From positions 1 through 40,127 of the forward strand of contig JAJPJL010000125.1 of assembly GCA_021324255.1 (NCBI GenBank): a stretch of DNA of 40,127 bases, in the 5' to 3' direction. The stretch is from Bacillota bacterium. Its GTDB lineage: Bacteria; Sysuimicrobiota; Sysuimicrobiia; Sysuimicrobiales; Segetimicrobiaceae. The notes under the pieces are model-generated. The model saw nothing but the letters and a program-made list of their open reading frames with translations, did no database searches and was not told the DNA's origin. This document shows positions 24,345 through 34,142 of this stretch, piece by piece; within the stretch, counting starts at the first letter, position 1, and every line of letters starts with the position of its first letter. The position numbers and the translations under genes are program-made.

Positions 24345-24422
24345 GCCCCCATCGTCTAGGCCGGCCTAGGACATCGGCCCTTCAAGCCGGTAACGCGGGT
24401 TCGAATCCCGCTGGGGGCACCA
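24345..24422 (+). tRNA. tRNA-Glu (anticodon TTC), CCA encoded, unusual loops
   Basis: A full cloverleaf can be drawn. The acceptor stem is GCCCCCA with TGGGGGC, followed by discriminator A and an encoded CCA. The anticodon arm is TCGGC-CCTTCAA-GCCGG, and the T arm is GCGGG-TTCGAAT-CCCGC. The anticodon is TTC, which reads Glu, and the body resembles bacterial tRNA-Glu (start GCCCCCATCGTCTAG). Two features are odd: position 33 is C instead of the nearly universal U, and the D loop is two bases longer than usual, producing a perfect palindrome CTAGGCCGGCCTAG. It may be a functional variant or a decaying copy. Confidence 0.85.
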
Positions 24423-32771: not shown

Positions 32772-32989
32772 GAGTGTCCTCCCCGGCCGCGGCCGTGGAC
32801 GGGTCGCCCGGCCATGTGACCTTCGGCTTCGCGAACCGCACCGGCGTCCCTGCCCAGCTCACCCGTGTCGGCCGGGTTCGCGGCCGGCGCCCCGGACGCC
32901 TAAGCGGGCGCGCGCGAGCGGCGGAGAAGGAATTGCTCCGCGCCCCGCGAACCCGCGGGTGATATCTCGTCGCGAAGGAGGTGAACGCG

Positions 32990-33061
32990 GTGGCACTCGT
33001 CGCATTTCTCGCGCTCGTCGGCATCACACTGTGGGCAACCGGCCACCTCATCGTCCGCTGA
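32990..33061 (+). CDS. tiny single-pass membrane peptide, copy 1 (23 residues)
   Basis: The reading frame is GTG followed by ALVAFLALVGITLWATGHLIVR and a TGA. An exceptionally good ribosome site, AAGGAGGTG (32975-32983), lies 6 bases before the GTG. The peptide is one hydrophobic helix ending in a polar, basic tail. The ending ATGHLIVR is nearly repeated by the second peptide at 33256, which argues for selection and not chance. Function unknown. The GTG at 32981 is in frame but is itself part of the ribosome site. Confidence 0.6.
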   Translation: MALVAFLALVGITLWATGHLIVR

Positions 33062-33098
33062 CCGCGACCGCAGCGGGAGATCAGTACGTGCGCATCTC

Positions 33099-33128
33099 GA
33101 TGAGGGGGGCTCGATCATCCCCCTCATC
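33099..33128 (+). promoter_or_regulatory. 10-bp perfect stem-loop between the two small peptide genes
   Basis: GATGAGGGGG (33099-33108) pairs with CCCCCTCATC (33119-33128) around a 10-base loop. No T run follows, so it is not a standard terminator. It sits 38 bases after peptide 1 and 128 bases before peptide 2 and could be an attenuator, a protein-binding site or a processing signal. Confidence 0.4.
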
Positions 33129-33255
33129 GGCGTTCTCGAGGGCGCCGCGCCGGCGCCGCCGGTGGATCGCGCGGACAACCCCCGCGGGAACGATGTTTGT
33201 GCCTCGGCCGTCCGGGGGATAGACCTGGGTGGATGGAACGAGGGGGGATGGTCAG

Positions 33256-33321
33256 GTGATCGTCTTTGTCCTGCTGGCGCTTCTCATACTCGCCGCCACG
33301 GGCCACATGATTCTCCGCTAG
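33256..33321 (+). CDS. tiny single-pass membrane peptide, copy 2 (21 residues)
   Basis: The frame is GTG followed by IVFVLLALLILAATGHMILR and a TAG. A GAGGGGGG site lies about 8 bases upstream. The same hydrophobic helix and the same ATGH-M-I-L-R ending as in peptide 1 are present. Its stop is 14 bases before the ATG of the secreted TPR gene, whose GGAGGG ribosome site comes right after, so it is probably cotranscribed with it and could act as a coupled leader or partner. Confidence 0.6.
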   Translation: MIVFVLLALLILAATGHMILR

Positions 33322-33335
33322 GCAGTGGAGGGACC

Positions 33336-34142
33336 ATGAAGATCCGGTGGAGCACGGGCATCCTCGTGGCCGGGGCGGTGCTTATGCTCCAGGCGCGCAC
33401 ACCGGCGATCGTCGCGGCTCAGTCCTCGCCGGGCGCAGCGCCCGGCCAGACGCCCAACCAGATCGAATCCGTGACCCTGGCCAAGGGCATCAAGTCGGCG
33501 TCGCTGTTCGGGAGCGGCACGCTCACCGCGGTCGACCCCGCGACGACGTTCGTGAATTCAGATCTGCCGTACGCGATCGTACGAATCAAGGGGCTGGCGC
33601 CGGACACGACGGTCGCCTTGCGCCTGAGCGATCCAATGGGCGAAGCCTATATGGTCCAGGCCAAGATCCCCCCGCACAAGGGCAACCCCAAGACGTTCGA
33701 CTTCGCGGCGCCGCTCTATATCCTGGGCACGGACCTCGAGTCGCACACCGGAACCTGGCACCTCCAGGTCCTGATCAATAACACACCCCAGAACGAGACG
33801 GCGTTTCAGTGGCAAGCCGCGACGCCCGCGGACGTGGACAAGATCAAGGCCGCGGTGGATGCATCCCCGCTCAGCGCGGACCTGCACTGGCGCTACGGCG
33901 CGGCGCTCGCGCTGGTGGGACGCCTCTCCGACGCGGTCACCGAGCTCCAGAACGCGATCCGGCTGGATCCGCAGTACGCGCTGTACTACATCACCCTGGG
34001 CCGCGTGTACGAGGCGCAGCACCGCGTCCCCGATGCCACGGCGCAGTTTCAAAAGGCGCTCACCGTCCACGGGAGCGCCTACTACGACTCGGTGTTTCAA
34101 GGGTGGGCGCGCGCGGATCTGTCCCGGCTCCAGGGACATTAA
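33336..34142 (+). CDS. secreted protein with C-terminal TPR repeats
   Basis: 268 residues; ATG preceded by GGAGGG. Residues 1-28 are a signal peptide (STGILVAGAVLMLQARTPAIVAAQ). Residues about 40-165 look like a beta-rich domain (GLAPDTTVALRLSDPMGEAYMVQAKIPP). Residues about 175-265 hold two tetratricopeptide repeats, LHWRYGAALALVGRLSDAVTELQNAIRLDPQ and YALYYITLGRVYEAQHRVPDATAQFQKAL. Probably an extracytoplasmic protein-protein interaction module. It directly follows small membrane peptide 2. Confidence 0.75.
   Translation: MKIRWSTGILVAGAVLMLQARTPAIVAAQSSPGAAPGQTPNQIESVTLAKGIKSASLFGSGTLTAVDPATTFVNSDLPYAIVRIKGLAPDTTVALRLSDPMGEAYMVQAKIPPHKGNPKTFDFAAPLYILGTDLESHTGTWHLQVLINNTPQNETAFQWQAATPADVDKIKAAVDASPLSADLHWRYGAALALVGRLSDAVTELQNAIRLDPQYALYYITLGRVYEAQHRVPDATAQFQKALTVHGSAYYDSVFQGWARADLSRLQGH

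Follow-up and report, generated by a model that had tools for sequence, protein, structure and literature searches.

A lineage-specific multicopy family of very short predicted membrane peptides in Segetimicrobiaceae, with SigB/SigF-type promoter candidates before a minority of copies

The window analysed here is a 40,127-nucleotide stretch of DNA (contig JAJPJL010000125.1 of assembly GCA_021324255.1, positions 1 to 40,127), in which two tiny open reading frames, peptide A and peptide B, lie upstream of a gene for a secreted TPR protein. The features of the locus are as follows.

32928-32951, plus strand: candidate promoter of A, AGGAATT (32928-32934) N13 CGAA (32948-32951), aligned in genomes G000, G001, G002 and G005.
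32975-32983, plus strand: Shine-Dalgarno of peptide A, AAGGAGGTG, read from the sequence and conserved in four genomes.
32990-33061, plus strand: peptide A, GTG start, 23 aa, MALVAFLALVGITLWATGHLIVR; family profile E 8.9e-10 in its own genome, pN/pS 0.15.
33098-33129, plus strand: 12-bp stem-loop, probable terminator of A, with 12 predicted pairs and no clear T-run.
33195-33223, plus strand: SigB/SigF-type promoter candidate of B, GTTTGT-N15-GGGATA, aligned in four genomes as GTTTG...GGG(G)A(A/T)A; the motif is enriched in the family.
33240-33247, plus strand: Shine-Dalgarno of peptide B, GAGGGGGG, read from the sequence.
33256-33321, plus strand: peptide B, GTG start, 21 aa, MIVFVLLALLILAATGHMILR; family profile E 2.1e-7 in its own genome, pN/pS 0.09.
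33336-34142, plus strand: secreted TPR protein gene, ATG start, Pfam TPR_2 E 8e-9.

The initial annotation had described two tiny frames 195 bases apart, each behind a strong ribosome site, with a 10-bp stem-loop between them and the second frame 14 bases before the secreted TPR gene. Both frames and both ribosome sites were found as described, and the coordinates leave 14 bases between the end of B and the start codon (ATG) of the TPR gene; the gap between A and B is 194 bases, and the stem-loop is present with 12 predicted pairs instead of ten. In favour of the start assigned to peptide B, the relatives G002 and G005 carry an ATG one codon after the GTG. A DNA search of relatives recovered the pair, with its order retained, in three further genomes. 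The sole Rfam match in the window is a tRNA gene at 24345-24419.

The peptide family was searched for in the genome and its relatives with a profile whose final version was built from 53 sequences. At E <= 3.3e-4 this search returned 68 copies, scattered at 3 to 12 per genome over all 12 genomes of Segetimicrobiaceae, with E values per genome of 1e-10 to 3e-4. Six copies belong to the window's own genome (contigs C92 twice, C48, C49, C94 and C121), and one copy from another genome is truncated at a contig end. All but a few of the genomes are draft metagenome assemblies, which makes the copy numbers lower bounds. Among the 31 remaining phylum genomes nothing scored better than E 0.0175; the best matches there (E 0.0175 and 0.1) both lay within long frames, and weak matches in G012 and G023 were left out of the count because they fell inside long open frames. 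A further profile match, G001:C81, had an in-frame stop and lacked the family features, and was dropped as chance. Because the profile finds the family in 12 of 12 genomes on one side and nothing comparable in 31 on the other, A and B are not chance frames.

The scan beyond the phylum used an exact DNA pattern for one peptide subtype, the W-type. Across 84,980 species genomes it matched 11 stretches, all of this lineage (MAGs called ANGP1 or Centralia 'Bacillota'). In those five genomes the pattern recovers 11 of about 24 known copies and is blind to A-, F-, V- and L-type copies; absence outside the lineage is thus well supported but incomplete. No match to the W-type pattern was found in 2.9 million viral contigs, and a phage link was rejected on this ground. 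The named relatives are Candidatus Segetimicrobium, ANGP1 being Candidatus Segetimicrobium genomatis (Segetimicrobiaceae, Sysuimicrobiota), and Segetimicrobiaceae is the family of phylum Sysuimicrobiota most abundant in soil (PMC11604079). Judged from sequence, A and B are members of a previously undescribed, lineage-specific multicopy mini-gene family in Segetimicrobiaceae, and this family almost certainly exists as translated genes.

Changes among related sequences are mostly synonymous, with a pooled pN/pS of 0.08 over eleven groups of like sequences (pS 0.41, pN 0.034) and values of 0.15 for A and 0.09 for B; the within-group pairwise counts are not independent, and the ratios are a description and not a test. 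The selection at the protein level first suggested for the two frames is borne out by these values. Synonymous change is lower in peptide A (pS 0.05-0.42) than in neighbour genes of the same genomes (0.21-0.61), which is suggestive only at about 19 synonymous sites, and the synonymous sites of peptide B vary freely (pS 0.61 pooled over the same genomes). Rare codons are over-used just before T-G-H, with GCA at codon -8 (Ala) seen 16 times against 2.4 expected and TTG at codon -10 seen 21 times against 4.4.

Peptide anatomy was read from the 63 copies available in full. They are 19-23 residues long, start with ATG (49 copies) or GTG (14), and form one uninterrupted hydrophobic helix with a mean GRAVY of 1.9, in agreement with the single helix originally proposed for A and B, the helix being called by hydrophobicity only. 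The helix is just long enough for one membrane crossing and carries a fixed polar C-terminal motif, T-G-H-x-x-x-(R/H/Q), within the consensus ...(W/A)-A-T-G-H-(L/M)-I-(L/V/I)-(R/H/Q)-stop. In the alignment, the T and G of T-G-H do not vary. Of the residues D, E, K, R and H, only three placements recur: Asp2 in 5 copies, His at -5 (five codons ahead of the stop) in 62 of 63, and Arg or His at -1 in 57. Gln occupies position -1 in the remaining copies, and the stop follows immediately with no further residue. By the positive-inside rule, and from charge only, the topology should be N-out/C-in, with a cytoplasmic C-terminus.

No significant relative of the peptides was found in Pfam, NCBIfam or the PDB sequences. 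Isolated weak profile matches to COX14, FixQ, MgtR and MgtS (E 0.046-0.5) are at chance level, the best NCBIfam match to MgtR having E 0.086 and occurring in 3 of the 53 members. The L-W-A-T-G-H stretch of W-type copies (in the window, within 32990-33061) is reminiscent of the motif at the C-terminus of bombesin-like peptides in animals, and 32 of 53 members match Pfam PF02044 weakly (best E 0.019). A bombesin-like identity was rejected as a few-residue chance likeness, below significance and with no biological link.

Comparison of neighbours across 65 loci revealed only two locations that are retained, each in about ten genomes, and two copies at least are therefore probably ancestral. One is marked by cupin, TPR and NUDIX genes, the other by a carboxypeptidase-like or small-protein gene, an amidohydrolase-like and an aldehyde dehydrogenase-like gene (assigned by eye from sequence); around the remaining copies the neighbours are mixed. 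The next downstream gene lies on the same strand at 32 and on the opposite strand at 28 of 60 loci, and within 150 bases the figures are 11 and 24. The TPR gene follows the peptides at the present locus in about ten genomes and not at other copies; here it is possibly co-transcribed with peptide B. A general partnership with the TPR protein, and the operon idea with it, was rejected, since neighbours differ at other copies and 24 of 35 close downstream genes are on the opposite strand. The initial annotation thus stands in its account of real coding peptides with protein-level selection, a hydrophobic helix and ribosome sites. Its local pair tied to the TPR gene gives way to a wider family, A and B being two of six copies in their genome and of 68 overall, most of them without a common neighbour.

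Of 200 shuffles of the 66-base stretch that contains the stem-loop between A and B, 196 fold less well than the native sequence (z -2.64). Four genomes retain the hairpin, and the alignment, read by eye, shows both partners of two pairs replaced in G005; in the family as a whole 31 of 63 copies have a downstream hairpin that beats all 20 shuffles, where 3 would be expected. On this enrichment and retention, the stem-loop at 33098-33129 is read as probably the transcription terminator of A and not a shared regulatory element; a consensus terminator scan requiring a T-run did not call it. From their sequence surroundings, most copies look like free-standing mini-genes with a good ribosome site and their own transcription unit.

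Upstream regions were compared with those of predicted genes near the same loci, taken from a simple gene caller. In 21 of the 63 copies, GTTT-N14-18-GGG(A/T)A stands in the 150 bases upstream; the motif precedes 1 of the 190 control genes and turns up 0.19 times per shuffled set. An unguided dyad search returned the same GTTT/GGG(A/T)A dyad among its top results, and in first place once one base of spacing slack was allowed. A leave-one-out PWM accepted 24 of 63 copies at a score reached by 2% of control upstreams, the number of independent promoters being smaller than this since some copies are orthologous to each other. These 24, a minority of the copies, are taken to carry the GTTT-N12-16-GGG(A/T)A promoter that marks a SigB/SigF regulon, and in about 60% of copies no promoter of the GTTT/GGG(A/T)A type was recognised. 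A narrower form, GTTTN14-18GGGTAAA, was found genome-wide just 3, 3 and 4 times in three genomes; six of these ten occurrences stand before the peptides, and the others precede unrelated sequence or genes. The family motif matches the published promoters of SigB homologues, GTTTAA-N12-14-GGG(A/T)A(A/T) (PMC8346170).

A SigB/SigF/SigG-type sigma factor (TIGR02980) was found in 12 of 12 family genomes, in 11 of them over the curated cut-off, compared with 7 of the 31 other phylum genomes, and the sigma protein of the window's genome gets its best scores from SigF/SigB models. SigB/SigF-type sigma factors also occur in the rest of the phylum, which lacks the peptides, so the sigma link is only correlative; for the motif-bearing copies, a SigB/SigF link is likely. 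In the window, the promoter candidate of B scores 9.3, below the threshold of 12.3, and its -10 is an imperfect match. Upstream of A the element differs: GGA(A/G)TT-N10-15-CGAA occurs in six peptide upstreams, five of them at the same locus as A, against 1 of 190 controls. The AGGAATT...CGAA element is also present at one independent copy and is kept at L071 and L081. The AGGAATT-N13-CGAA before peptide A may be the promoter of another alternative sigma factor.

We propose, with roughly even confidence, that the peptides are single-pass membrane mini-proteins under partial SigB/SigF-type control that act via a membrane partner or self-association. They would be made under general stress or starvation and would insert N-out/C-in. 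The T-G-H face would make helix-helix contact with an integral membrane partner or with another copy, and this contact would tune a membrane function, as in known stress-linked small membrane proteins. The partner protein is guessed rather than seen, since no gene neighbour is common to most copies. By analogy, the closest in likely use would be stress-linked small membrane proteins such as YohP, a 27-aa single-helix peptide with N-out/C-in topology (PMC7549839). With YohP, MgtR and MgtS the peptides share a single short helix, a gene of their own, a stress link (here from promoter type only) and the predicted topology; they differ in being shorter, in having 3-12 paralogues per genome and in giving no significant profile match. 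As in the SigB/SigF general-stress regulons of Bacillus and actinobacteria, a common GTTT-N-GGG(A/T)A promoter is accompanied by a matching sigma factor in the genome; here six of ten strict promoter matches in three genomes precede the peptides, and the regulon is a putative one. More tentatively, and with some doubt, these about 22-residue transmembrane peptides, with one motif and 3-12 dispersed copies in one family, could be a stress-controlled set constituting a new class of membrane regulator, or an oligomer with a buried T-G-H, with no relative elsewhere.

The initial annotation had also raised type I toxin-like peptides, under which stress-induced, membrane-depolarising peptides would slow growth and be checked by antisense RNAs, like Ibs/Sib or Ldr. 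The Ibs and Ldr multicopy type I toxins of E. coli are the closest systems in layout, likewise very short hydrophobic single-helix peptides in dispersed copies from free-standing small genes, and the family here fits in size (under 60 aa with a membrane helix), hydrophobicity and multicopy arrangement. Also in favour, IbsC is 19 aa long, and in most type I toxins the C-terminus is positively charged and faces the cytosol (PMC8309996). The few synonymous changes in A (pS 0.05-0.42) are such as an overlapping RNA could cause, whereas the synonymous sites of B change freely (pS 0.61). Antisense sigma-A-like promoters numbered 1 against 1.1 expected, in a test that covers the sigma-A-like type only and is weak in an uncharacterised GC-rich phylum. 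The peptides have no sequence family match to Ibs/Sib or Ldr and differ from them in their many SigB/SigF-type promoters and in a near-invariant T-G-H; IbsC stays toxic despite extensive mutation, even frameshift (PMC7192591). Because of this near-invariance, unlike IbsC, and the lack of an excess of sigma-A-like antisense promoters, action through a partner or self-association is preferred, and a toxin role is considered unlikely.

It is similarly improbable that the peptides serve a membrane enzyme, such as a respiratory oxidase or a transporter, as small accessory subunits, with the copies as condition-specific isoforms. Many known single-helix subunits are about 30 aa long, and an invariant T-G-H in the helix suggests a fixed docking site or ligand. 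The profile matches that would point this way (COX14, FixQ, MgtR and MgtS) are those at chance level, and among the 65 loci no copy lies consistently beside a membrane enzyme gene.

Leader peptides or regulatory RNAs, in which translation of the small frame controls the downstream gene or the mRNA is the functional product, would accord with the 14-base spacing of B and the TPR gene, with a hairpin after about half of the copies and with the codon bias before T-G-H (GCA 16 against 2.4, TTG 21 against 4.4). A fixed co-oriented downstream gene, the mark of a leader or attenuator, was not found; the differing neighbours and the mostly opposite-strand close downstream genes (24 against 11) disfavour such a role, and it is the amino-acid sequence that is conserved (pN/pS 0.08), not a run of regulatory codons, which makes this reading very unlikely. 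A role as short signalling peptides that are secreted and act through the C-terminal ATGHxIxR is scarcely credible: a hydrophobic N-terminal part with a conserved C-terminal motif, and a TPR protein adjoining B, are set against the lack of a positive N-terminal region as in export signals, a TPR protein that looks secreted and has no DNA-binding domain match, and no receptor gene recurring near copies at the 65 loci.

The peptides rank among the shortest bacterial proteins with selection at the protein level that can be demonstrated over many genomes, and they make up a multicopy family instead of an isolated case. As far as promoter and sigma-factor sequences indicate, they look like a recognisable component of a stress programme of SigB/SigF type in an uncultured, soil-abundant phylum. 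The GMSC small-ORF catalogue covers 9-99 aa, a range that includes such frames, and according to its authors similarity search recovers sequences of 20 aa poorly (PMC11364881). Such genes largely escape standard annotation and similarity search, and comparable families may therefore hide in other lineages. The family is a ready set of natural variants for testing the specific action of a 20-residue helix.

Genes that by eye resemble DUF948, YtxH and RsbW form an apparent operon with the SigB/SigF-type sigma gene (L142-L145 of G002, G009, G004 and G007), a cluster that looks like a general-stress operon. In three genomes GGTTAC-N-GGGTA, resembling a SigB-type promoter, stands before the YtxH-like gene of this operon.
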